Of a stretch of DNA of 64,000 nt, positions 36,846-49,333 are shown piece after piece. A program made the position numbers and the translations under genes. The stretch spans positions 1 through 64,000 of the forward strand of contig CAIQIE010000225.1 of the NCBI GenBank assembly GCA_903871805.1, written 5' to 3'. Each line of letters begins with the position of its first letter. Position 1 is the first letter of the stretch. The notes under the pieces were generated by a model that did not search any database, was not told where the DNA came from, and saw nothing but the letters and a program-made list of their open reading frames with translations. Source of the DNA: an uncultured Planctomycetaceae bacterium. Lineage in GTDB: Bacteria; Planctomycetota; Planctomycetia; Planctomycetales; Planctomycetaceae.

Positions 36846-38264
36846 TCAGACAATATGGCGTCCACCGGGCTCCGCAAGGGGCATCGGCTGACCAGAGCCG
36901 GCCGTTCCGGCAGCGGATAAAAAGCGTTCCTGAATCATCGCCAGACCGTCCCGCAGACTCTGCCGTGACGGCAGCATGATCAGTGATCGCTGGCGGTAGA
37001 TCATCACCACCACGAGAATATTCCAGATGCAGCGTCCCAGCAGATAGGCCAGAGCGGCACCTTCGACTGCTGCCATCCGGCTGAAAACATACAGCAGTAC
37101 TAACTGCAGGGGAATGTAGGCGAACAGCAGGCGACTGTAAGCCCGTTCCATGCCGGTGGTCTGCATGACCGGGATTGTCGGCCCGGTCAGGCAATCCACG
37201 ATGGTGGCCAGCAACAATGCGGGCAGAAGTACTGTCACAGTCTGCCATTGTATCCCGAGGATCCGTACGAACAGGGGTGAGGCGACCATGATCGCTGCGC
37301 ACAGCGCAGTGGAGATCAGAAAAATGAGTGTTGCCGCGTTTCGGGCAAGCACCCGGGATTCGTCGTTTCTGCCGGAATGATACAGCCTCGCAAATCCCGG
37401 AATCAGACTCATATTCAGGAGACCAAGCGGGATGCTGGGCAGACCTGCAATCAGCATAGCGTAGGAGAGCTGAGCGGTGTCAGCGAAGCTGCAGCCCGCA
37501 GCAACAGCGAGGGGAATACTTCGCTGGCAGAGGATGCCTCCGACGGCGACAAAGACAAACGGAAGACCGGCATGAAACCGATCGCGCAGGGCACCGTTCG
37601 GCAGAATGTTGCTGGCTATTGCTGCCGAGTAGAGGGGTTTCAGGACTCCGTGGCACGAGGTGAGTCCCCAGACGGTGATGGTCAGTCCGGAAAACAGCAG
37701 GGCGGCGGTTCTGGCTGTCAGTGCCGATGGCATAAGTAAGAACAAACCCGGCAGCAGAATCAGGGAGCACCCCGGGATCAGAATCTGTTCCGGCATCACA
37801 GCTCGCCGCGTGCCGATCAGAGGAATCGCAATCCACTGTCTCAGGTAGGTCAGTGTCAGCGGCCCGAACATCAGTGCGGCCAGCAGTGTCGTTTCACGCC
37901 ATGGGTAAAGTCTGAGCTGGTGACAGAGCAAAGCGATCACCAGACAGCCGGCGAGCAACGCGCCGGACACCAGCAGAGCACATCGATGGGTAAGACGAAC
38001 TTCCGGGGCCGCGTCATCCAGCGATGGCCGGATCGACAGGTTCCGGATCAGAATCCGATCCGTTCCAAGTGGTGCGAGGGTTGCGAGCAGCATCGCAAGG
38101 GACAATCCGGCGCTGTAGGTTCCGTATTCTGCGGGTCCGAGGAGTTTTGCGGTCAGGGTCGTGGATGCGAACAGCAGCAGGATCCCGAGCGCGCGAATCA
38201 GCAGGGTTCCCGAGGCCGCGGAACGGATGGATTCCTTCCCTGATTCTGATCCTGAGACACTCAC
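36846..38264 (-). CDS. Polysaccharide flippase (Wzx/MOP family)
   Basis: A 472-aa protein with ~12 hydrophobic segments, typical of MOP-superfamily lipid-linked oligosaccharide translocases. The N-terminus reads ALGILLLFASTTLTAKLLGPAEYGTYSAGLSL, the classic RfbX/Wzx opening. I choose the GTG at 38264 because a CTGGAG ribosome binding site lies 6 nt upstream; an in-frame TTG at 38270 would overlap that site. It would flip an undecaprenyl-linked sugar chain across the inner membrane. It is the last gene of a six-gene minus-strand row, 28 bp after the dehydratase. Confidence 0.82.
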   Translation of the reverse strand: MSVSGSESGKESIRSAASGTLLIRALGILLLFASTTLTAKLLGPAEYGTYSAGLSLAMLLATLAPLGTDRILIRNLSIRPSLDDAAPEVRLTHRCALLVSGALLAGCLVIALLCHQLRLYPWRETTLLAALMFGPLTLTYLRQWIAIPLIGTRRAVMPEQILIPGCSLILLPGLFLLMPSALTARTAALLFSGLTITVWGLTSCHGVLKPLYSAAIASNILPNGALRDRFHAGLPFVFVAVGGILCQRSIPLAVAAGCSFADTAQLSYAMLIAGLPSIPLGLLNMSLIPGFARLYHSGRNDESRVLARNAATLIFLISTALCAAIMVASPLFVRILGIQWQTVTVLLPALLLATIVDCLTGPTIPVMQTTGMERAYSRLLFAYIPLQLVLLYVFSRMAAVEGAALAYLLGRCIWNILVVVMIYRQRSLIMLPSRQSLRDGLAMIQERFLSAAGTAGSGQPMPLAEPGGRHIV

Positions 38265-38292
38265 GGTCAACTCCAGAGTTCTGTCGGCAGGA

Positions 38293-39405
38293 TCACGCGG
38301 CTCGTCGCAGCGGCTTCTGAGGCATTTGAATGATGGGGCGTTCCCTGAGATAGGGAGCCAGCAGGTTATGGTGATCGCAGTAGTTTCTCAGTTCCTCCAG
38401 AGACATCGCGTTTGCGGGCGAGCTGATGTAGGCGTCATGGACTTCCGGGGAGACGAGGTCGCTGTAGTCATACGCGATTTCCTCATAAACACTGCGGAAA
38501 GCGGGGAGTACGGCAAACATCTCGGTGAGTTCCACGGTTCGTCGTGTTTCCTCATCGCTCATCAATTCTTCGTACAGTTTTTCGCCAGGCTTGGCTCCGA
38601 TCTCGGTGATGGGCATGCGAGTCGAAGAGAATCCGTACTGATCGGCCAGCGAGTCGATCATGACTCGTGCAAGATCGGCAATCTGAATGACAGGCATCTT
38701 TGTTACGAAGACTTCACCGCCGCGGGCCTTTTCAGCGGCTGCAAGCACGAGGCGACAGCTATCCTCAAGCGTCATAATAAATCGTGTCATGCGGTGGTCC
38801 GTCAGCGTGACGGGGCCACCATTTTCGATTTGTCGGGCGAAAATCGGAATGACCGACCCACGGGAGCCGAGGACATTTCCGAAGCGGGTAGAGCTGAAGA
38901 TTGTGCGTCGCTGCATCTTCAGGCTGTTGGCTGCAGTAAACAGGCGTTCGCCCATCAGTTTGGACGTCCCCATCACGTTGGTTGGGTTTACCGCTTTGTC
39001 GGAGCTTGTAAAAATCACGCGTTCCACATCATTGTTCAGCGCGGCATCAATCACATTTCTGACGCCCATAATGTTCGTCTGCACGGCGTCAAAAGGTGCG
39101 CGTTCGCACAGAATCACATGTTTCAGGGCTGCCGTGTGCAGGACAATATCCACACCTGCGAACATGCGATTGAGCTTATCGGCATCGCGTACGTCACCAA
39201 TCTGGCACAGACTGGAAACACGCTGTTCCGGATGCTGTCGGGAATGCTCCATCAACTCCTGTTCAAGAAAGAACACCTCTGATTCATTGGTGTCGATCGC
39301 CCGGATTTCCCCTGGCTGATGACTGAGCAGTTGTCGTACCAGCTCGCGTCCTACGGTTCCACATCCACCTGTCACAAGTACTGTTTTGCCGGAAAAAAAA
39401 GACAT
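38293..39405 (-). CDS. CapD/PseB-like nucleotide-sugar dehydratase (extended SDR)
   Basis: A 370-aa protein. The Rossmann glycine motif TVLVTGGCGTVGRELVRQLL is at residues 8-27. AALKHVILCERAPFDAVQTNIMG and SSDKAVNPTNVMGTSKLMGERL are hallmarks of UDP-GlcNAc 4,6-dehydratases (inverting PseB/FlaA1 and CapD-type polysaccharide proteins). The usual catalytic Y-x3-K reads M-x3-K here (NVMGTSK), as in PseB-like enzymes. It should make a deoxy-keto sugar nucleotide for the glycan. The protein ends MPQKPLRRAA, a tail shared with other proteins in the row. Confidence 0.82.
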   Translation of the reverse strand: MSFFSGKTVLVTGGCGTVGRELVRQLLSHQPGEIRAIDTNESEVFFLEQELMEHSRQHPEQRVSSLCQIGDVRDADKLNRMFAGVDIVLHTAALKHVILCERAPFDAVQTNIMGVRNVIDAALNNDVERVIFTSSDKAVNPTNVMGTSKLMGERLFTAANSLKMQRRTIFSSTRFGNVLGSRGSVIPIFARQIENGGPVTLTDHRMTRFIMTLEDSCRLVLAAAEKARGGEVFVTKMPVIQIADLARVMIDSLADQYGFSSTRMPITEIGAKPGEKLYEELMSDEETRRTVELTEMFAVLPAFRSVYEEIAYDYSDLVSPEVHDAYISSPANAMSLEELRNYCDHHNLLAPYLRERPIIQMPQKPLRRAA

Positions 39406-39468
39406 GAGATTTCTCTGAGAGTAACGGAGGTGTCGGGGAAGAGTCGTCTGGAAGCGGATGGGAATTCA

Positions 39469-40389
39469 CTAGGCCGCGCGGTGTCGGTACAGGCTCTGAT
39501 CAATCATCTGCAGCATCGCGGTGGTGTTCAGCGAAGAGCCGAAGTGACGATTAATCTGGGCCAGCGTGATTTCCGGGTGTGCCAGCAGTTCGTTGTAACT
39601 GATATTGACCAGATTCAGGTGGGGCTGGGATGGCAGCCATCCGTAAAAATTGCGGAGTTCGCGTTCAAACAGGGCCTTCATGATGGCGTCGGGAATGTCT
39701 GTTGCAATTCCTTTGCGTTCGAGCATTTTTTTCTGAGACTGCAGAACTTCGTCCACCTGCCTTCGCATAAAGATGACCCGATACTGGCGATCGGCTGGCA
39801 GGTGTCTAAGCAGACTGTAAACCATCTTGACGGAATGCCCCGGGGCGTGATCAATCCACGAAGTGTTCTCCTGAATGGCCTTCACATCTTCAAACTCATA
39901 GTAGCCATTCGGATTGTCTTCATCGGGCGTCCTGAGCGAATCCGTCAATGCGGGAATTCCTCCAGCTTCCAGCATTCGCATCATCAGCGACGTTCCGGAC
40001 CTTGGAAGACCGGAAACGACCGTGACCCAGGGGCGATTGGTTTCTGCCGCAGGGACCTGCTCCAAAGGCGGCATCGCATCACTGGCTTTTTTCAGCAGTG
40101 TCATCAGCTGCCCTTCTGTCAATGCTCCTGTGCGACGATCCACGGTCTGACCGCTGGCCCAGGCGATGAATGTTGGCACACCGCTGATCTGATATTGCGC
40201 CGCGATGGCGGGACTGCGGTCGATGTTGAGGGAATACACATCTGCCCAGTCGCTGACTTTCACCGCCAGCTTGTCCACAACCGGCTGCATCATTTTGCAG
40301 GGTGGGCACCAGGAAGCCCAGAAGTCTACCAGGACAGGGCGGTCTGACTTCAGCACCAACTCTTCAAAATCGGATTCTCGCAGTTCCAT
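39469..40389 (-). CDS. Thioredoxin-sulfotransferase fusion protein
   Basis: A 306-aa protein. Residues 1-105 are a complete thioredoxin domain with active site WCPPC (C28, C31) and the cis-Pro loop GVPTFIAW. Residues ~120-306 are a sulfotransferase domain: 5'-phosphosulfate loop SGLPRSGTSLMMRML (from ~126), then YRVIFMRRQVDEVLQSQKKML, which fits the 3'-phosphate site. The sulfotransferase part should move sulfate from PAPS to an acceptor, probably a sugar. The fused redox domain is unusual. It lies between the dehydratase and a sulfoquinovose-synthase-like gene. It ends RHRAA. Confidence 0.85.
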   Translation of the reverse strand: MELRESDFEELVLKSDRPVLVDFWASWCPPCKMMQPVVDKLAVKVSDWADVYSLNIDRSPAIAAQYQISGVPTFIAWASGQTVDRRTGALTEGQLMTLLKKASDAMPPLEQVPAAETNRPWVTVVSGLPRSGTSLMMRMLEAGGIPALTDSLRTPDEDNPNGYYEFEDVKAIQENTSWIDHAPGHSVKMVYSLLRHLPADRQYRVIFMRRQVDEVLQSQKKMLERKGIATDIPDAIMKALFERELRNFYGWLPSQPHLNLVNISYNELLAHPEITLAQINRHFGSSLNTTAMLQMIDQSLYRHRAA

Positions 40390-40545
40390 GGTTCGTTTCG
40401 TTTCACTGTTGATAAGCCGTCAGGATTGACGGGGTCTGAAATCTGTTTTCCAGGGATCCGTTGTTAAAAATACAGGGAGCCGGGGATGGGTTGATGTGAT
40501 TGTTCTGCCAGTGACCATCGGAATCTGATCCGCATTGTCCGGGGA

Positions 40546-42024
40546 TCAGGCAACGGGTTTCCATGTCTCCAGAACTTCCAGTTTTCCATGCTCGCCCGAC
40601 CACTTGGTTTTGGGGAAAAGTGTGTCTTTCTGTGCGAGAATCCGTTCACGATGTTCGGGCTGCATCAGAACCCGGAACAGGTGACGAACTTCATCGGCAA
40701 AACCAGATTCGGACGCAAATCCGAAGCGTTCCCCAAGCTTCTCGTGGATGACCTCGTACGGATGTTCCTCGGCTTCCACTCGCGGGTTTTCGATACGCTG
40801 AACCTCAACATCCAGGCCGAATTCCCGGCCAAGTGTGGCCACCATTTGTGCGATTTGCAGCACACTGAAGACATCCGTCACCTGATTGACAACGTCGTAT
40901 TGCCCCGGTTCGGGAGGGGCGACAATCAGCCGAGTGATGCACTGCATGGCATCTCGAAGTGTGATGTAACCGCGTCGCTGATTTCCTGAGCCGTAGATCG
41001 TCAGGGGCATACCGATAACAGCCTGAGCCACAAAGCGGTTGACCACCGTCCCCCACCATTCGTCGATGTCAAATCGGGTGCTGAGGTCTGGATGAGCCTG
41101 CAGTTCTTCGGAATAGTTACCGTAGATCACACCCTGCATCACGTCATAGCTTCGCAGCCACCAGTATTTGCAGGCTTCGTAAACACTGAACGTGCCCTGC
41201 ACTTTGCTGACGTGGTAGAAACTGACAGGATCCCGAGGTGTCAATTCTCCTCCAAGACTCCATTCCTGCCCCTGATACTGCAGTACGGCGTCGCCTGGGA
41301 ACAGTCCTTCGAACAGAGGGCGTCCGGTGAGCGGACTTCCGTATTCCCCCATGGTCCCCAGTTTGATGATCGACGCATCGGGAGCATGATCACGAACACC
41401 AAAGAGCAGGCCCAGAGTTCCCACGACATTATTCTGGATCGTGTTTACAGCGCGATCCACGTCTGCCATGCTGTAGGGAGCGCTGGGGATTTCGGCGAAC
41501 TGCACGATCGATTCTGGTTGAAATTCGCGGATACAGGCAAACAGGGCATCGCGGTCCAGAAGATCGATCTCCCGAAAGTCGATATCCACACCCAGATGTT
41601 CTTTTGCGGCGGCGATTCTCTCCTGCATGGTTCGAATTTCCGTGACCGAATGAGCGCCTCGTTCGGCAACCAGTTTGCGTCTGAGCAGATTGTCGATGCC
41701 CATGACACGGCATCCCAGCTTTGCCAGTTTCAGTGCCAAAGGCCAGCCGAGGTAGCCATCCATGCCAAGAATCAGCACGCGCATTCCGTCCAGCAGATAG
41801 CCGCTGTCGGTCTTCTTCCACTCGCTGCAGGATTCAAAAGTGATGGACATCGGATCAAAATATCCAATGTCCGGGCGTCGTCGGCATTCAACAACCAATT
41901 GCCCTTCCGCAGCCTTGCGAAAGGCCGCCTGACCGCACGCGCGAAAATCCACGTGCCCCTTGAATTCCACCGCAGGACAACTCCAGCAGGTCTGGTTTGC
42001 ATTGTGGCAGGATGATTGTGTCAT
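40546..42024 (-). CDS. UDP-sulfoquinovose synthase-like epimerase (SQD1/SqdB/Agl3 family) with Cys-rich N-terminal extension
   Basis: A 492-aa protein from the ATG at 42024. From residue ~82 on it follows SQD1 closely: MRVLILGMDGYLGWPLAL, SAPYSMADVDRAVNTIQNN, KLGTMGEYG (catalytic Thr), FYHVSKVQGT (Tyr and Lys), GNQRRGYITLRD and NPRVEAEEHPYE. SQD1 makes UDP-sulfoquinovose from UDP-glucose and sulfite. The first ~80 residues are an extra segment with Cys at ~6, 13, 16, 30 and 47, possibly metal-binding. The core could start at M81 (41784) instead. No SqdX/SqdC-type lipid glycosyltransferase is adjacent, so a glycan product is more likely than sulfolipid. Confidence 0.8.
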   Translation of the reverse strand: MTQSSCHNANQTCWSCPAVEFKGHVDFRACGQAAFRKAAEGQLVVECRRRPDIGYFDPMSITFESCSEWKKTDSGYLLDGMRVLILGMDGYLGWPLALKLAKLGCRVMGIDNLLRRKLVAERGAHSVTEIRTMQERIAAAKEHLGVDIDFREIDLLDRDALFACIREFQPESIVQFAEIPSAPYSMADVDRAVNTIQNNVVGTLGLLFGVRDHAPDASIIKLGTMGEYGSPLTGRPLFEGLFPGDAVLQYQGQEWSLGGELTPRDPVSFYHVSKVQGTFSVYEACKYWWLRSYDVMQGVIYGNYSEELQAHPDLSTRFDIDEWWGTVVNRFVAQAVIGMPLTIYGSGNQRRGYITLRDAMQCITRLIVAPPEPGQYDVVNQVTDVFSVLQIAQMVATLGREFGLDVEVQRIENPRVEAEEHPYEVIHEKLGERFGFASESGFADEVRHLFRVLMQPEHRERILAQKDTLFPKTKWSGEHGKLEVLETWKPVA

Positions 42025-42114
42025 GAAACCTGAATCCGAAATCAAAGGCAAATTGTGGCAGGGATGCGAGCACAGTTACTGGAGCCCATGGCCTGCTGAA
42101 TGATCATTATTCCG

Positions 42115-43401
42115 TTACGCCGCTCGCCGCAGTCGGCCATATTTTTGAGGCAGAACGACCTCCAGAACATTTTCCACATGCATGTCGCCCGGAATCTGCC
42201 CATGTCCCTCGCCACGAACGAAGAATGATGATTCTTCATACGTATGCCGACCGTTGATCAGCGTGGGTTCCACCAGGGCCGAAAGATTCATACGTCCGGA
42301 AAGAGCCACATCTGTCGCGGGCATTACGATCAGGTCCGGCGCCCGATGCGAGAAGGGACCACTGTAAACTCCGGCGCCACGAATCACTTCGGTGGAAATC
42401 GGCATTCCTTCAACCGATACCTGCAGCAGGTACGATGTGATCGCCTGCATCAGTGACTCAGCCTCATCGGCCAGCACGGTACCGCCCGGATACCGTCCCT
42501 GACGATGCAGATAAATTCGTCCCGGATCCATGGCAAATGCTGTCGACTCGGGAAGAATATCCATACAGGAAGGACGAGCAGACGCTTTCAGCTTCAGAAA
42601 TCCGCCCTCAGCCAGAACACAGTTGAGATTTACACTTCTGCGCTGGCGAGCAAATCCGTGGTCTGAAACGGCGGCCAGTGTGGTGCGATCATCCAATCGC
42701 TCCAGAATGCGACCAATCTGCGCGTCAACCTCGTGATAGTAATCCAGAAATGTCTGGTGGAAGGACGAAGTGCTGTCTTCGTAGTCTTCCCAGAGGTAAT
42801 GGTTCAGACGGTCGGTTCCGGTGAACACGAACATGATGTTCTGCCACGATTCCCGGTCCCAGTGGTGATGCAGTGCTGAGCAGCGAGTACTCATGACACG
42901 CCGCAATTCTTCTACGAAACGCCCCTTGCCCTTTTCGACCAGAGACATGTCTGCATCAACGGAGTACTGAATACTTTCAAGCCATGGTAACTGCTCAGCG
43001 GGGTAGACCGCCCGCTTCAGATCGAGGGCCACAAAACCGGAAACCAGCATACCATTCAGTGGCTGGGCCGGGTAGGTTTGCGGCACATTCATAATCAGAC
43101 TCGGCCCCGCATCCGGCTCCGCCCAGAACGGTTTTGCACGAAATGTTCTGGACGACGTAAACCCCAGGCTGTAGCTGCCGTCCATCAGATCCGTGAATCC
43201 AAAGACATTGTGCCCGCCGGAGTTCTGCCCCGTCACGATCGACGCCCATGCCGCTGAGGAAACCTCGGGCAAGGCGGATTTCATGGGCACCAGCGTCCCC
43301 GTTTTCAGCAACTGCGCACTATTCGGCATCACGCCCATATCAGCGAATTTTTGCCACATCCATCGTGGCAGTCCATCGATGCCAAGAAGAAACAATTTCA
43401 T
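42115..43401 (-). CDS. Alkaline-phosphatase-fold phosphodiesterase/nucleotide pyrophosphatase
   Basis: A 428-aa protein. The start is the ATG at 43401, preceded by GGGAGG. The N-terminus LFLLGIDGLPRWMWQK gives the first metal Asp, EVSSAAWASIVTGQNSGGHNVFGF holds the nucleophile region, and AAVSDHGFARQ gives later metal ligands. No signal peptide is present. It belongs to the type I phosphodiesterase/nucleotide pyrophosphatase group and could act on a sugar nucleotide or lipid-linked intermediate. It is second in the minus-strand row, 90 bp before the SQD1-like gene. The C-terminus LPQKYGRLRRAA resembles that of the dehydratase. Confidence 0.75.
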   Translation of the reverse strand: MKLFLLGIDGLPRWMWQKFADMGVMPNSAQLLKTGTLVPMKSALPEVSSAAWASIVTGQNSGGHNVFGFTDLMDGSYSLGFTSSRTFRAKPFWAEPDAGPSLIMNVPQTYPAQPLNGMLVSGFVALDLKRAVYPAEQLPWLESIQYSVDADMSLVEKGKGRFVEELRRVMSTRCSALHHHWDRESWQNIMFVFTGTDRLNHYLWEDYEDSTSSFHQTFLDYYHEVDAQIGRILERLDDRTTLAAVSDHGFARQRRSVNLNCVLAEGGFLKLKASARPSCMDILPESTAFAMDPGRIYLHRQGRYPGGTVLADEAESLMQAITSYLLQVSVEGMPISTEVIRGAGVYSGPFSHRAPDLIVMPATDVALSGRMNLSALVEPTLINGRHTYEESSFFVRGEGHGQIPGDMHVENVLEVVLPQKYGRLRRAA

Positions 43402-43477
43402 GACCCCGGCCTCCCTTCCGCGATCCTGCACTCCATCGATTTCACGGTTCACTGCACAGGAAGCAGCACCCGACGGA

Positions 43478-43882
43478 CTATAAGTACCCAAGTTGCCTCA
43501 GCCGCTCAGTGACTGCTTCCGTATCTTCCTCATCCATAAATGCATCTGCTTCACACAACTCCATCAGCGTGCAGTGCAAATGAGGGATATTCTGCCTCGA
43601 AAGTTCTGAAACCAGCTTTTTTGCGTCGCTGCAGTGTTCTTCCGAGACCACGACAATTCTGCAGATCTCGCTGCCATGCAGTGAAGCCAGGGACGCCCCC
43701 ATGGAATCCCGCCAGGTCAATTTTCCTGGCGTTGTACCGCAACTGAGCGTATCGCCACTGTCAGTGACGTAAAGCGTCCCTTGCGTGGTATTCAGAGTCT
43801 GTTGTGTCAGATTCAGCAGCGCGTCGCCGCCCAGAATGACTTCCGTAATGGAGTTGGCGGTACTTGAACAGGCAGTCGTCAT
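43478..43882 (-). CDS. Uncharacterised 134-aa protein
   Basis: Not recognised. It begins TTACSSTANSITEVILGGD. A beta-rich middle (TLYVTDSGDTLSCGT, WRDSMGASLASLHGSEICRIVVVSEEH) is followed by an alpha/beta end with an acidic patch (DAFMDEEDTEAVTERL). There is no signal peptide. It is the first gene of the minus-strand glycan row, 76 bp before the phosphodiesterase, so co-transcription is likely. Confidence 0.6.
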   Translation of the reverse strand: MTTACSSTANSITEVILGGDALLNLTQQTLNTTQGTLYVTDSGDTLSCGTTPGKLTWRDSMGASLASLHGSEICRIVVVSEEHCSDAKKLVSELSRQNIPHLHCTLMELCEADAFMDEEDTEAVTERLRQLGYL

Positions 43883-44826: not shown

Positions 44827-45327
44827 ATCGCAAAAAGGGGACATTCTACTTTCTGCCGTAGGGATACCCTTAATGTACCCCGCGCCTGTGCCGCGGCTTC
44901 AAGCCGTCCTGACGCACCCCGGCAAAAGGGTACCAGAAAATAGCCAGTTGTCAGCGTAACGCCTCCACCGGAACTGTGCCCCCACGATCGTTGGAATTCG
45001 AATCCGCAAGGATGAGTCCGTCCCATTTAGATTCTCCGTCTGGTGATGAGTCATGGGAGAGGAGATCAGGATGCGCCTTCGGTTTTCTGTCACCTCTTCA
45101 GGGTGAAATTCATCAATTTGGCGATGCCTGGGGTGGCGTTCTAACTGACACCCTGTGAATGTCGCCAATCTGACTGCGATGATTTCAGAACATGCCTGCA
45201 AGGGTAGTAACTGCAGATATTCCGGGGTGAAAATAGGCAGATGCGAAATGTCATCAGCGGCCGGTGGTCCGGGTGTCGGCGAAGATGTGGATAAATTCCA
45301 CTTCATCTCCGGTTTTGATATTTGACC
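44827..45327. other. Region upstream of the HExxH gene
   Basis: 501 bp with no supported gene. It contains repeat copy A. It also contains a small stem (CGGCTTCAAGCCG near 44898), and TACCCTT at 44867 with AAGGGTA at 44927 as a longer-range inverted pair. Confidence 0.4.
44966..45109. repeat. Dispersed ~150-bp repeat, copy A
   Basis: Aligns over its length with 46481-46638 in the same orientation. Shared blocks are CACCGGAA, CCCACGAT, GGAATTCGAATCC, TCCGTCTG-GGTGAGTC-TGGGAGAGG-GATCAGGA and a final CTTC-AGG-TGAAAT. Read on the minus strand, both give fragments such as SP-THHQTE-LN and IRIPTIVG, which I take to be a repeat artefact and not a gene. Confidence 0.8.
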
Positions 45328-46464
45328 ATGCCCAGTGAGGCTGAACAGGATGTGCCCGCGTGCAATGGCCAAACATCGGCGTTCGTTGACAGTGGCGAGC
45401 GTCCTTCGATTAGCATCCTGAGGGACATCATGGGTACAGTGGGAAATGCCTCCGCATTACCGGAGAGCATCGGGGCAATGAATCAGTCCATGTTCTCCGA
45501 CGACATCGCCGCGGAGTGGTTTACCTGCAAGCCCTGTGCGATCGGCAGCCAGCAGGTTGGCGAGATTTGGCGTCGTTTCTGGCAGAATAATGCAGAAAAC
45601 GCCCTGCAATCTGCGGCAGATGGTTTAGGTCAGAGCCTGGATCGCCTGCTACATCATGTCCGCAATTTTGATCTGACCAGACGTCTGGCTCCGAGGCTAT
45701 GTGCACGGGTAGCGGATCTGATGGAGGCGATGGACCGACGGGATGGATACGCGGTGATGGATGGACTTCAGGTCTGGTGCAATGATGCCCCGGAAGACTG
45801 GTATGCAGATGACCTGATTACCGAGTCGATTGCTGCGCATGCATGGGAACAACCCCTGCTGCGAGAAATCCGATCGACTCAGGTCAGCGGCATGGGGCCG
45901 CTGGAGTTCTTTCCGCTGCTGGAATCTGACACGCTGCGGTATCACCAGATTGCGATGCATGCGCTGCACCTGATTGGTGAGGTGGATCCCGACATGCACG
46001 CGGAGATCAGCACGCATGTCTCAATGATCAAACTGTTCACCGGCAGCGGCATCGAGGGGCTCAGCACACCCAAGGCTTTTGGAGCGTTATGGCTGAAGGT
46101 TCCGACTGAAGAAAACGCATTGGCATGGTTTCTGGAGCATCTGGTCCACGAATGTTCTCATCTGCATCTGAATGCGCTCTTCTCCCTCGATCCACTGCTT
46201 TATAATCCGAACGAGATTCACCAGGCTCCGATTCGCCCTGATCCTCGTCCGATGTTCCAGATTCTTCACGGTACGTTTGTACTGGCGAGAAACTGTCGCG
46301 TTCACGCACGGCTTTGTGAGCGATTTCCGGAGTTGAATCTGCAGCCTGCCTTAGAGAAGTTTCATGAGCAGTTCCAGCGTGGGATTGCTGTCGTTGAGGG
46401 ATGTATGAAGCCAACGCGGCGGGGAGCATTGCTGTTGCAGTCTCTCAGTGAGGCAGCTGCATAG
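45328..46464 (+). CDS. HExxH putative peptide-modification protein (TIGR04267-like)
   Basis: A 378-aa protein from the ATG at 45328. The metal-site motif is HECSH at residues 274-278 inside FLEHLVHECSHLHLNALFSLDPLLYNP, followed by APIRPDPRPMFQILHGTFV. Both blocks match what I recall of the HExxH family thought to help mature ribosomally made peptides, often beside radical SAM genes. No radical SAM gene or obvious precursor peptide is within reach here. There is no signal peptide. The C-terminus is QSLSEAAA. The gene is bracketed by two direct copies of a dispersed repeat. Confidence 0.75.
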   Translation: MPSEAEQDVPACNGQTSAFVDSGERPSISILRDIMGTVGNASALPESIGAMNQSMFSDDIAAEWFTCKPCAIGSQQVGEIWRRFWQNNAENALQSAADGLGQSLDRLLHHVRNFDLTRRLAPRLCARVADLMEAMDRRDGYAVMDGLQVWCNDAPEDWYADDLITESIAAHAWEQPLLREIRSTQVSGMGPLEFFPLLESDTLRYHQIAMHALHLIGEVDPDMHAEISTHVSMIKLFTGSGIEGLSTPKAFGALWLKVPTEENALAWFLEHLVHECSHLHLNALFSLDPLLYNPNEIHQAPIRPDPRPMFQILHGTFVLARNCRVHARLCERFPELNLQPALEKFHEQFQRGIAVVEGCMKPTRRGALLLQSLSEAAA

Positions 46465-46897
46465 ACATAACGAACATCGTCACCGGAATCGGTCCACCCA
46501 CGATGGTCGGAATTCGAATCCCGAACAACGGATGACGGACAAACGCGTCTCGTTCAGATGCTCCGTCTGCCGGTGAGTCGTGGGAGAGGCGATCAGGAGG
46601 CATTCGCGGCTTTCTGGCAGCCCTTCGAGGCTGAAATGCGTGCCGGCTGCGCAACACGACAATTCAGCACAGGTGGGGATTACAGACGGCTCATTTACCG
46701 CTTCCTCACGGGCGCGGCTCCTGGGAGTTTCGGCTTCCTGGCCGGTTGTGGGTCCTGGGATTTTTCCGCTTCCTCACGGGCGCGGCTCTTGGGAGTTCCA
46801 CTCCCTGGTCGGTTGTGGGGCTGGGATTTTTCCGCTTCCTCACGGGCGCGGCTCCTGGGAGTTCCGCTTCCTGGTCGGTTGTGGGGCTGGGATTTTT
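46465..46897. other. Repeat-filled gap between HExxH and BatA genes
   Basis: 433 bp almost wholly made of dispersed repeat copy B and the 66-68 bp tandem array. No gene is supported. The flanking genes converge here. Confidence 0.7.
46481..46638. repeat. Dispersed ~150-bp repeat, copy B
   Basis: Direct counterpart of 44966-45109. It begins 16 bp after the HExxH stop codon, so the two copies flank that gene. The end GCAGCCCTTCGAGGCTGAAA is also like the motif at 9630-9647. Confidence 0.8.
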
Positions 46898-46899
46898 TC
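46699..46899. repeat. Three tandem 66-68 bp repeats
   Basis: Units at 46699-46766 (68 bp), 46767-46832 (66) and 46833-46899 (67). Each starts CGCTTCCTCACGGGCGCGGC and ends GGCTGGGATTTTT or close to it. The array overlaps the first two bases of the reversed stop codon of the BatA/vWA gene (46898-46900). The plus-strand 164-aa frame across it is a product of the repeat. Confidence 0.92.
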
Positions 46900-49333
46900 A
46901 GGTTGCGGGACTGCTGACAGCTTCGTCATAGAAGAAGTTGGACATGATGTGTTCGGCGCAAAAGAGCAGGATCACCAACCCCAGCAGGACGGGAAAGACT
47001 TCGACCCCCAGCCGGCTGGCGCGAACAGCATTCTGCAGATCTTCGGGCTGACGAATGATCGTCAGGTGATCTGAGCTGGCCAGAGACTGCAGCTGATCAT
47101 CCGGAATTCTGGTGAGGTCTGTTTCGTCATCCGGAAAATTGACGGAAAACGCAGCTTCATAGGAGGACGGGGATTCGAAGGGTTTCAGCAGATAATGTCC
47201 CTGGTCGCTGACATCCGTCAGCAGGACGCTGGACTGATCCGCTTCCAGTTTTCCTCGTGTCTGTCGTAACCCGGGGCGTCGGAGCAGAAATTGTTCAAAT
47301 CGCTGTGTTGGGGGGACGGGGAAATCCAAGATTGTCCCAGAGGTGAAGTTTCTTTGCAGCGAGGTGAAATCTGTCAGATGTGCGAGAAGTTCATCCGCCA
47401 GGACCAGGAAGGCCCAGCTGGTGACGAGGTTATTCCACCGACTTCCGCCTTCCGGCAGATTGTCCATCGCGGAGGTAAACATCAGGCACCGTCCTGCGCC
47501 GACTTTGCGTTCCAGAAGTGCGGGCCTGGCTCCCGGACCGGTAAATGTCATCAGCGTTGTGGTATCGGGAAGATTCTCGACAGCCCAGCATTTGTCGAAT
47601 GCGGCAGCGCCCAGTTCCACCCGCAGCGCTTCGTCGCTGGAAAAATCCCGCAGGACAGGATGTTGTGACGGGGCAAGTTTCAGCTGGCCGGGTTCATTGA
47701 GAAATCGGACGATGGTCAGCGGCGTTGCGGGCAGTACCTGCCGAGCGGCGGGTGTGGACCATGTTCCGGGCTGAATCCGGGAAGACCCAGCCACGACAAA
47801 GACTCCGCCTCCATTTTGCAGATATTTTGCCAGCGCATTCCAGAGGGATTCGTCCGGACGCTGAATGCCAACGAGAAAGACGGCGTCAAATCCGGTCAGC
47901 GTTTGCTCTGCGGCGCTGGCGGTGGGAATACTGACGCACTGGCAGAGTCGCACGCCGGCTCTTTCCAGTTCCTCGGGTTGAAGTGCATTTTTTAGGTACA
48001 GCGATTCTTCAGGACGATCAGCGATCAGCAGAACTTTCGGTGCCGGCCGAACGCCACAGGAAAAGTAACGGACGTTGTCGTCCATCAGCGGATCTTCTGC
48101 GGTCAGTCGGATGACGCCTTCCACGCAGGATGCTGCTCCGGTGATTTTTATGAGACTTTGAATTCTGGCGGCATTGCCATCGAGTTTGACAAGAACCGGT
48201 GCGCCGCTTCGCACCTCCTGTCCTGAAGCATCGATAAGACTGGTCTCGACAGTGGCCATTGCCGGAAGGCCCTGAGTTGACGCAATGGACATGGAAAGTA
48301 CAAGATCACGTCCGGTGACGGTGGATTCGTCTGAAAGAGTGAGTTGTGTAATTCCGGCATTCACCGGGGCTGGAACAGAAACATCCACAAGATAAATGTG
48401 CAGCCATGGCAGCTGCGTCAGCAGATCTGCCAGACCATTTTCATCAGGAATCTGGAGGGACGCTCTGGAAAAATCAGACAGGACATAAATGTCACGAGCA
48501 AACAGATCTGCGGAGCCACCCAGTCCGGCCTGTTCCTGCACCAGACGCCGGTCTTCGACCTGTGCTTTGATTGCCGCCTGAATCTGACGATTGAGGCGGC
48601 CGGGTACTGCGGTGACTTCCATGGCTTCCATGCGGGATGACGTGCCGGACAGATCGGCCTGAAAGATGATTTCTTCATCTGCTTCGGAGGAAGCCACTGC
48701 GGCGCGACTTCCGGACGGAAATCGTTCGAGGAGTTGCTTTGCCAGCTGGGATGCGGCTTCCATGCGAGTCAGATTTTCCTGGCGATAGTTCATGCTGATG
48801 CTGTTATCGATCAGAAATACGGCCGCGACGGGAACGTCCTCGGTGCCCTCATTGCGAGGTGACAGAAGTTCTGCCCGCACCCGCAGGCCCCACGGGATGC
48901 CGGTCAGCAGAATCACCATCAGGAGTCCCATGAGCAGGCACAGGACCTTCTGGCGACTTCTGCGTTGAACACTGTTGACGGCGGCCGACTGGCTGGCAGC
49001 ATCGCGGCGGCCCATCAGGACGTAGATAACTCCGCTGAGACCGGCAGCCAGGCCAACTCCTGCCCATTCCCACCACCTTAGACCGTAATTAGCGGCGGGC
49101 AGTGACGGTCTGGCAATGGCGACGACCAGTGTGCAGATCAGCAGGACGCGCAGCGCCAGCAGCAGAATCTGACGCAGTCGCATGCGGCGGGCATTGGATG
49201 GTTGGCGAGCTTTCAGCAGTCGCAGCGCCGGAAACTCAATCCGTTTTGGTTTGGCACGCATCACCAGATGAAGAATCAGGGGAATGCCTGCGAGGATCAA
49301 ACCCAGCAGCAGTGAGGAATTGATCAGAGTCAT
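46898..49333 (-). CDS. BatA/vWA-domain membrane protein
   Basis: An 811-aa protein. Residues 1-80 are the N-terminal double-transmembrane BatA segment (SSLLLGLILAGIPLILHLVMRAKPKRIEFPALRLL, then LLLALRVLLICTLVVAIARP). A third helix and a further one lie near 90-150. A von Willebrand A domain follows, with the MIDAS motif FLIDNSISMNY at ~175. A second half (~440-700) contains a glutamine-amidotransferase-like segment (FDAVFLVGIQRPDESLW, GGGVFVVAGSS). A last helix precedes the C-terminus. Such proteins are common in planctomycetes and often sit beside MoxR and DUF58 genes, which are not in this window. Confidence 0.85.
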   Translation of the reverse strand: MTLINSSLLLGLILAGIPLILHLVMRAKPKRIEFPALRLLKARQPSNARRMRLRQILLLALRVLLICTLVVAIARPSLPAANYGLRWWEWAGVGLAAGLSGVIYVLMGRRDAASQSAAVNSVQRRSRQKVLCLLMGLLMVILLTGIPWGLRVRAELLSPRNEGTEDVPVAAVFLIDNSISMNYRQENLTRMEAASQLAKQLLERFPSGSRAAVASSEADEEIIFQADLSGTSSRMEAMEVTAVPGRLNRQIQAAIKAQVEDRRLVQEQAGLGGSADLFARDIYVLSDFSRASLQIPDENGLADLLTQLPWLHIYLVDVSVPAPVNAGITQLTLSDESTVTGRDLVLSMSIASTQGLPAMATVETSLIDASGQEVRSGAPVLVKLDGNAARIQSLIKITGAASCVEGVIRLTAEDPLMDDNVRYFSCGVRPAPKVLLIADRPEESLYLKNALQPEELERAGVRLCQCVSIPTASAAEQTLTGFDAVFLVGIQRPDESLWNALAKYLQNGGGVFVVAGSSRIQPGTWSTPAARQVLPATPLTIVRFLNEPGQLKLAPSQHPVLRDFSSDEALRVELGAAAFDKCWAVENLPDTTTLMTFTGPGARPALLERKVGAGRCLMFTSAMDNLPEGGSRWNNLVTSWAFLVLADELLAHLTDFTSLQRNFTSGTILDFPVPPTQRFEQFLLRRPGLRQTRGKLEADQSSVLLTDVSDQGHYLLKPFESPSSYEAAFSVNFPDDETDLTRIPDDQLQSLASSDHLTIIRQPEDLQNAVRASRLGVEVFPVLLGLVILLFCAEHIMSNFFYDEAVSSPAT

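Follow-up and report, generated by a model that had tools for sequence, protein, structure and literature searches.

The closest described relatives of the enzyme considered here are SQD1 of plants and Agl3 of Sulfolobus, members of the UDP-sulfoquinovose synthase family. The usual route to sulfite is a reductase of 3'-phosphoadenosine 5'-phosphosulfate (PAPS) or adenosine 5'-phosphosulfate (APS) together with thioredoxin, and, to our knowledge, the safe delivery of sulfite to UDP-sulfoquinovose synthase is an open point. According to the accessible portions of two Agl3 studies, alanine at H95 or R101 abolishes activity (PMC4388408), M145 is likewise required, and the enzyme already forms a 5,6-ene without sulfite (PMC8987622). 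We analyzed a 64,000-nt stretch of DNA from an uncultured Planctomycetaceae bacterium (contig CAIQIE010000225.1, positions 1 to 64,000; hereafter the window), whose minus strand carries a row of six genes built around an SQD1-like enzyme. This enzyme has an N-terminal extension with five invariant cysteines, and its gene lies between those of a phosphodiesterase and a thioredoxin. The three-gene cassette recurs across bacteria and archaea; it is, as far as we can tell, new, and may point to a so far undescribed means of attaching sulfur to sugars.

The six open reading frames (ORFs) of the row occupy positions 36846-43882. They are given here from the first gene to the last, with the extension and the two domains of the fusion protein on lines of their own.

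43478..43882, minus strand: hypothetical protein of 134 residues, first gene of the row; matches no known family
42115..43401 (listed ORF 42115-43491), minus strand: AlkP-superfamily phosphodiesterase / nucleotide pyrophosphatase-like protein, first gene of the three-gene core; PF01663, 106.5 bits (cut-off 23)
40546..42024 (listed ORF 40546-42051), minus strand: extended SQD1-like enzyme, 492 residues from an ATG, likely start 42024; NF041015, 422.6 bits (under the cut-off of 575)
41785..42024, minus strand: N-terminal extension of the SQD1-like enzyme with five invariant cysteines; no Pfam family
40090..40389, minus strand: thioredoxin domain, active site CPPC, third member of the three-gene core, fused to the sulfotransferase domain; PF00085, 90.7 bits; TIGR01068, 100.4 bits (over the cut-off of 96.8)
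39469..40071, minus strand: sulfotransferase domain of the fusion (Sulfotransfer_3); PF13469, 44.4 bits (over the cut-off of 27)
38293..39405, minus strand: CapD/PseB-like nucleotide-sugar 4,6-dehydratase; PF02719, 337.7 bits; PseB model TIGR03589, 286 bits (under the cut-off of 407.75)
36846..38270, minus strand: Wzx-like flippase (polysaccharide exporter), a weak family match; PF01943, 23.6 bits (under the cut-off of 28.2)

The gaps, computed from likely ATG starts, are small: 22 bp between the CapD-like dehydratase and the flippase, then 63, 156, 90, and ~76 bp. The original prediction had described six genes on one strand in tight order, and the ORF positions and family searches bear this out. 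Its family labels also agree with ours, but two were stated too strongly: the flippase is below its cut-off, and the dehydratase meets the wider PF02719 family while missing the model cut-off for PseB, the inverting UDP-N-acetylglucosamine (UDP-GlcNAc) 4,6-dehydratase. What it called an epimerase does belong to the SQD1 family but is longer than plain SQD1 by ~80 N-terminal residues. The cysteine extension and the archaeal cassette, the more unusual features, were missed.

The AlphaFold model of the SQD1-like enzyme (predicted local distance difference test score, pLDDT, 88.1; predicted template-modeling score, pTM, 0.90) has 1qrr, 1i2b, and 1i24 as its best Foldseek matches, with E values of ~1e-43 to 1e-42 (1.3e-43 for 1qrr) and a target template-modeling score of 0.94; the best non-SQD1 structure follows at 9.1e-20. 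With SQD1 structures so far ahead of other epimerases, fold and sequence rule out a plain epimerase. The catalytic T/Y/K triad (T224, Y270, K274) and the MGEY motif (M225-Y228) are present, and T224, M225, E227, Y270, and K274 are the counterparts of SQD1/Agl3 catalytic residues. In a tree of 71 rows, a hand-picked set analyzed by a quick method, the window enzyme falls into a separate clade of 26 rows with full support (SH-aLRT, a Shimodaira-Hasegawa-like approximate likelihood ratio test, 100).

Members of this clade carry ~80 residues ahead of the Rossmann start. Five cysteines, C13, C16, C30, C47, and C66, are invariant in all 23 clade rows in which the extension is visible, 11 from planctomycetes and 12 from Aminicenantes and archaea; L053 and L056, which are cut there, and L055 are omitted. 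The N-terminus of L055 is visible and lacks the extension, and both cassette neighbors are absent as well. A scan of the collected loci found the cysteine motif only in this clade. The extensions of four members had no Pfam match at E values up to 10, and phmmer searches against the PDB returned chance-level matches only (E 0.78 and worse). Model confidence is high for residues 11–20 (mean 90), fair for residues 41–60 (79–88), and low for residues 24–40. An artefact of reading frame or start codon is ruled out by the conservation of the five cysteines between planctomycetes and archaea. The extension is, as far as we can tell, previously undescribed, and its cysteines would be compatible with metal binding or with a relay for redox or sulfur.

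The cassette also occurs beyond planctomycetes. A scan of named genomes kept 80 loci: three of the window's genus, nine other clade members, and 68 others (L057-L124). The nine (57–64% identity) come from Thermoplasmatales, two Aminicenantes, Geothermarchaeum, Lokiarchaeota, Hodarchaeota, Bathyarchaeota, Gemmatimonadetes, and Omnitrophota. Searches within the phyla of three clade members found the enzyme in 8/227 (Asgard), 2/247, and 2/300 genomes and added six Asgard loci, which brings the total to 15 non-planctomycete genomes, the majority of them archaeal (Asgard and other groups). A thioredoxin gene directly follows the enzyme gene in 12 of the 13 non-planctomycete loci with that side visible (L054 and L146 end there and are uncounted); the exception is L055. 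The phosphodiesterase gene lies within 3 kb in 11/13 loci, directly upstream in ten and ~2 kb downstream in L049. It is absent from L055 and from L048, where the neighboring stretch is partly masked; L053 and L056 start inside the enzyme gene and are excluded from this count, and L056 has no phosphodiesterase in the 8 kb downstream. Both partners are within 3 kb in nine of the 11 judgeable non-planctomycete loci, and directly adjacent in eight. Among the 68 SQD1-like loci without the extension, whose flanks vary in length, neither neighbor was found (0/68 at E 1e-4). The cassettes of two Asgard genomes (L144, L145) have neighbors that do not look glycan-related; at L144 Pfam confirms an adjoining TrmB-type regulator.

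The partners have features of their own. None of the 15 cassette thioredoxins has the usual CGPC motif, against nine of 16 other thioredoxins from the same genomes (16 used of 40 found), and in the thioredoxin tree eleven non-cassette rows group apart (97/97). The phosphodiesterase model (pLDDT 92.4) is closest in fold to 1ei6, a phosphonoacetate hydrolase, and to Xanthomonas NPP; both by fold and by sequence the protein is most like the NPP/phosphonoacetate hydrolase group. The thioredoxin-sulfotransferase fusion is, as far as we can tell, new, and suggests a joint action of thioredoxin and PAPS chemistry. Its best PF13469 stretch spans only profile positions 99–212 of 216; PRSGTS, read by eye, is presumably the P-loop for PAPS. 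In G059, a genome of another genus, thioredoxin and sulfotransferase are two ORFs in the same frame with stops between them, and so are separate genes or a split fusion. A likeness of the sulfotransferase domain to designed armadillo repeats (phmmer against the PDB) covered one short stretch and was disregarded as compositional. In one Aminicenantes cassette thioredoxin (L052 6191-6520, plus strand), CLPS replaces CxxC, leaving only the first active-site cysteine.

We see an even chance that the row, built on the cassette, makes UDP-sulfoquinovose or a close C6-sulfur sugar with an enzyme served by its own thioredoxin, and that the chain is exported bearing sulfate. Gene order, families, fold, residue losses, and cassette conservation are observed; from here on we infer substrate, product, sulfur donor, and the roles of thioredoxin and phosphodiesterase. 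Within a Wzx/Wzy-type locus for a surface polysaccharide, the row would be the end that supplies sugar and exports the chain. The SQD1-like enzyme would oxidize UDP-glucose at C4 and then remove water to give a 5,6-ene, and a sulfur nucleophile would add at C6, yielding UDP-sulfoquinovose or a closely similar sugar with sulfur at C6. Thioredoxin, as a dedicated partner, may act on the cysteine extension, either keeping it reduced or freeing sulfite or sulfur there, and the phosphodiesterase may clear a nucleotide by-product or trim the nucleotide sugar. In members of the window's genus a PAPS-type sulfotransferase, the CapD-like dehydratase, and the flippase are joined to the cassette, and the exported chain would therefore also bear sulfate esters.

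A more specific form of this proposal, which we consider unlikely, is a sulfur relay common to bacteria and Asgard archaea, in which thioredoxin would pass sulfonate or persulfide via the five-cysteine extension to C6 of UDP-glucose. The sulfonate might travel as S-sulfocysteine and then sulfite, or persulfide sulfur might be passed instead. In planctomycetes the thioredoxin would be aided by its fused PAPS-binding sulfotransferase domain, the phosphodiesterase removing the nucleotide by-product. The product, formed with no free sulfite, could be a sulfonated sugar or even a 6-thio one, and PAPS would be reduced by a sulfotransferase-type fold; we know of no PAPS reduction by such a protein fold.

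Several findings weigh against the C6-sulfur proposal. Where Agl3 has H95 and R101, the window enzyme has Q175 and P180. P occupies the R101 place in all 26 clade rows, and the position of Agl3 M145 is L in two members (L048, L054). The Q is confined to planctomycete rows of the alignment; L048-L056 keep H but have P. The clade stem is long (1.01 changes per column), and a change of reaction in the extended clade is therefore possible, judged from sequence. The enzyme misses the cut-off of NF041015, the UDP-sulfoquinovose synthase model (422.6 versus 575 bits), which none of 392 Planctomycetota genomes reaches and seven match below. The flippase scores below its family cut-off. Sulfotransfer_3 is over its cut-off in 13 of the 17 genomes with the enzyme (any match, 15/17), so the sulfotransferase is not strictly tied to the cassette. 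Two of the 15 cassette thioredoxins are nearer ordinary ones in the best tree, and a single cassette-thioredoxin clade is neither shown nor rejected (approximately unbiased test, p 0.385). Finally, on a Haladaptatus plasmid an alkaline-phosphatase-family gene, whose product is 23% identical to the window's phosphodiesterase, lies directly upstream of a non-extended P-type SQD1-like gene (L126 4389-7167). The phosphodiesterase link is thus not exclusive to the extended enzyme; this pair perhaps reflects an older link between the two families.

The main rival is that sulfur chemistry was lost in the clade along with R101 (and, in planctomycetes, H95). The enzyme would then be a UDP-glucose 5,6-dehydratase or an epimerase/dehydratase giving a deoxy or otherwise modified sugar, and sulfate ester would be the sole sulfur in the glycan. 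We regard this as possible, though doubtful. Arabidopsis SQD1 retains R101, and so do rows from Acidobacteria and Dormibacterota, some from Chloroflexi, one from Sulfolobales, and one from Sinorhizobium that lies next to a glycosyltransferase gene. Its retention in the Arabidopsis, Sinorhizobium, and Sulfolobales rows, the need for it in Agl3 (PMC4388408, as far as the accessible text goes), and the 5,6-ene that Agl3 forms without sulfite (PMC8987622, with the same limit) all fit such a loss. So does the spread of P at this place, which is found in 58 of the 71 hand-picked rows, with R in ten and other residues in three. However, a role in sulfur handling is suggested by the thioredoxin partner, the cysteine extension, and the sulfotransferase fusion; the remaining active site and the fold are still SQD1-like, and many of the P101 rows simply have an unknown product. 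Outside the extended clade, among loci L057-L124, a large, widespread SQD1-like branch carries P at the essential R101 place. This P-type branch may be over-annotated as sulfoquinovose synthase; we know of no product assigned to it. The original prediction, that the enzyme puts a sulfonate on glucose, remains plausible from the SQD1 fold and triad, but sulfonation cannot be taken for granted because R101 and H95 are lost and the clade stands apart on a long stem, besides missing NF041015. As for clustering with non-sulfur epimerases, which that prediction had named as a check, fold and sequence place the enzyme in the SQD1 family, but in a clade of its own on a long stem, lacking H95 and R101 and under the family cut-off.

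An ordinary UDP-sulfoquinovose synthase would use free cytoplasmic sulfite, with thioredoxin and cysteines serving redox control, and its product would enter a sulfoquinovose glycan like the Sulfolobus N-glycan. The SQD1 fold and triad are what one would expect of it, and Agl3, in the portion of the source available, shows that sulfoquinovose can enter glycans. We nevertheless judge this improbable: H95 and R101 are gone, the NCBI family cut-off is missed, and a regulatory role alone leaves the co-travelling phosphodiesterase unexplained. An ordinary planctomycete polysaccharide locus is very improbable; its archaeal likeness would stem from a general nucleotide-sugar gene that was transferred repeatedly, along with unrelated thioredoxins. 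In its favor, thioredoxin and phosphodiesterase families are common, a one-clade origin of the cassette thioredoxins is not shown, and the Haladaptatus phosphodiesterase sits beside a non-extended gene. Against it, both partners lie within 3 kb in 9/11 non-planctomycete loci versus 0/68 controls, CGPC is found in 0/15 cassette thioredoxins versus 9/16 others, and L144 and L145 have the three genes on their own.

For the C6-sulfur proposal, the export side rests on the planctomycete relatives. The SQD1-like protein was found in 18/99 genomes (own included; E up to 1e-30). Sixteen belong to the 18 genomes of the window's genus (own included; G003 and G015 are absent from the matches); the others are G059, with 84% identity, and G076, whose enzyme is of the usual type (44%). 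Full-length matches in the genus and G059 share 84–93% identity. The row is intact, with six genes in identical order, in ten of the 18 fetched loci, and five more (L028, L031, L034, L035, and L037) are interrupted by contig ends and consistent as far as visible. L025 has no flippase match within the 13 kb fetched (1/18). The G059 locus (L033) keeps the first five genes, with a weak flippase further on, and in G076 (L036) the usual-type SQD1 gene stands alone with none of the row's neighbors. This conserved gene order is more than chance. The hypothetical protein occurs in the window's genus and G059, with 33–67% identity in relatives, and adjoins the phosphodiesterase wherever both are visible; it had no tblastn match at the non-planctomycete loci compared.

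We examined how the row continues past the flippase or dehydratase in G004, G011, G014, and G059. Downstream of the flippase, the G004 row continues with Wzy_C, a group 1 glycosyltransferase, and another sulfotransferase. In G011 a similar-looking ORF occupies the Wzy place, and a glycosyltransferase of group 1 and a second sulfotransferase come after it in this order; in G014 the flippase is followed by Wzy_C and a methyltransferase. In G059 the dehydratase is followed by a sulfotransferase, Wzy_C-like and flippase-like genes (both below cut-off), and a methyltransferase. In the window itself no Wzy or glycosyltransferase gene adjoins the flippase, which is followed by pyrH on the opposite strand. 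Because the row continues into Wzy-type, glycosyltransferase, and second-sulfotransferase genes in some relatives, the glycan-export reading gains support: judged by these genes, the row looks like part of a Wzx/Wzy-type exported polysaccharide locus, and the sulfotransferases in and beside it make sulfate esters on the glycan likely. The original prediction would have given up a joint role had the row been conserved in no relative, and the order is kept in ten of 18 loci with five more in agreement; its exported glycan is supported by the conserved row and by the Wzy_C, glycosyltransferase, and sulfotransferase genes that follow. The absence of glycosyltransferases that it noted applies to the window's row; the rows of G004 and G011 do include one.

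Genes for sulfur activation were sought in nine genomes. APS kinase is over its cut-off in seven of them, and PF01507 (PAPS reductase and kin) had no match in four (G011, G466, G467, and G468; completeness is known for some). One Asgard locus (L149 7462-10827) carries the row sat, DHH protein, sulfotransferase, cysC, a complete-looking set for making and using PAPS; its stand-alone sulfotransferase is 34% identical to the window's domain (pairwise E 1e-30). The Geothermarchaeum cassette has cysC and sat at a distance of ~6.5 kb, and the interval holds a further PF01663 gene and a similar ORF. The Lokiarchaeota contig that carries the cassette also has a PF01663 paralogue, flanked by sat and cysC.

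L148 5643-8765 and L150 6533-10578: phosphodiesterase paralogues at or between sat and cysC in Lokiarchaeota and Geothermarchaeum; the two group together

These sat/cysC-side paralogues possibly handle PAPS or 3'-phosphoadenosine 5'-phosphate (PAP). They group together (99/99) and with the Haladaptatus protein (100/99, long branches). A PAPS role was not transferred to the cassette phosphodiesterase, since the paralogues group among themselves and with the Haladaptatus one.

Other observations concern the row's surroundings. A small gene lies between the phosphodiesterase and SQD1-like genes in G014 (L027 8282-8686, minus strand) and G059 (L033 9586-9876, minus strand); we take it to be GxxExxY-like. 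Contig CAMAVB010000097.1 (L046) has the row at 89% identity, with the same match position as G001:C97 of the window's genus. The divergent neighbor of the row in the window (45322-46464, plus strand) encodes an aKG-HExxH-type peptide beta-hydroxylase domain (TIGR04267, 77.4 bits, cut-off 40). At 46558-47074, ARLLGVPLPGRLWGWD / LPHGRGSWEF is repeated in overlapping frames and resembles a dispersed repeat rather than a gene.

Among open-licence papers, searched by title and abstract opening, we found none describing the cassette, the cysteine extension, a thioredoxin-sulfotransferase fusion, or a thioredoxin beside an SQD1-like gene, and none on sulfoquinovose synthesis in planctomycetes or Asgard archaea. 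If the C6-sulfur proposal is true, C6-sulfur sugars would have a second route, one that depends on thioredoxin, and it would be present both in planctomycetes and in Asgard archaea. A dedicated cysteine domain and thioredoxin make the question of sulfite delivery directly testable with three recombinant proteins. The planctomycete superphylum has many sulfatases, according to the accessible part of a survey (PMC6388578), and these would then be linked to the planctomycetes' own sulfated and sulfonated glycans.

Compared with SQD1 and Agl3, the window enzyme has the same fold, Rossmann start, and T-M-G-E-Y and Y-H-x-S-K motifs, and its substrate is likely also UDP-glucose. It differs in the ~80-residue extension with five invariant cysteines, in Q and P for H95 and R101, in a few-residue insert ahead of the YxxxK motif, and in missing the NCBI cut-off; its clade further differs in having thioredoxin and phosphodiesterase as regular neighbors. 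The sulfoquinovose N-glycan pathway of Sulfolobus likewise uses an SQD1-family enzyme, Agl3, to supply a surface glycan rather than a lipid, so that such an enzyme in a glycan locus is of an already known kind; the window, in contrast, has a Wzx/Wzy-type locus with sulfotransferases, and no Agl-type genes were seen in the row. The sulfoquinovosyl diacylglycerol lipid pathway (SqdB, SqdX or SqdD, SqdC) also includes an SQD1-family enzyme, but the window's row is without a glycosyltransferase-type gene. A plain lipid route is unsupported by the row, as none of its six genes matches a glycosyltransferase family (SqdX was not searched genome-wide). As with PAPS/APS reductase and its thioredoxin, PAPS and thioredoxin would yield sulfite in the cassette proposal, but the PAPS-binding part would here be a sulfotransferase-fold domain, which makes the link a tentative one. 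Bacterial Wzx/Wzy loci for sulfated capsular polysaccharides or exopolysaccharides share flippase, Wzy_C, glycosyltransferase, and sulfotransferases with the window's relatives; to these the row adds its core of extended SQD1-like enzyme, thioredoxin, and phosphodiesterase.

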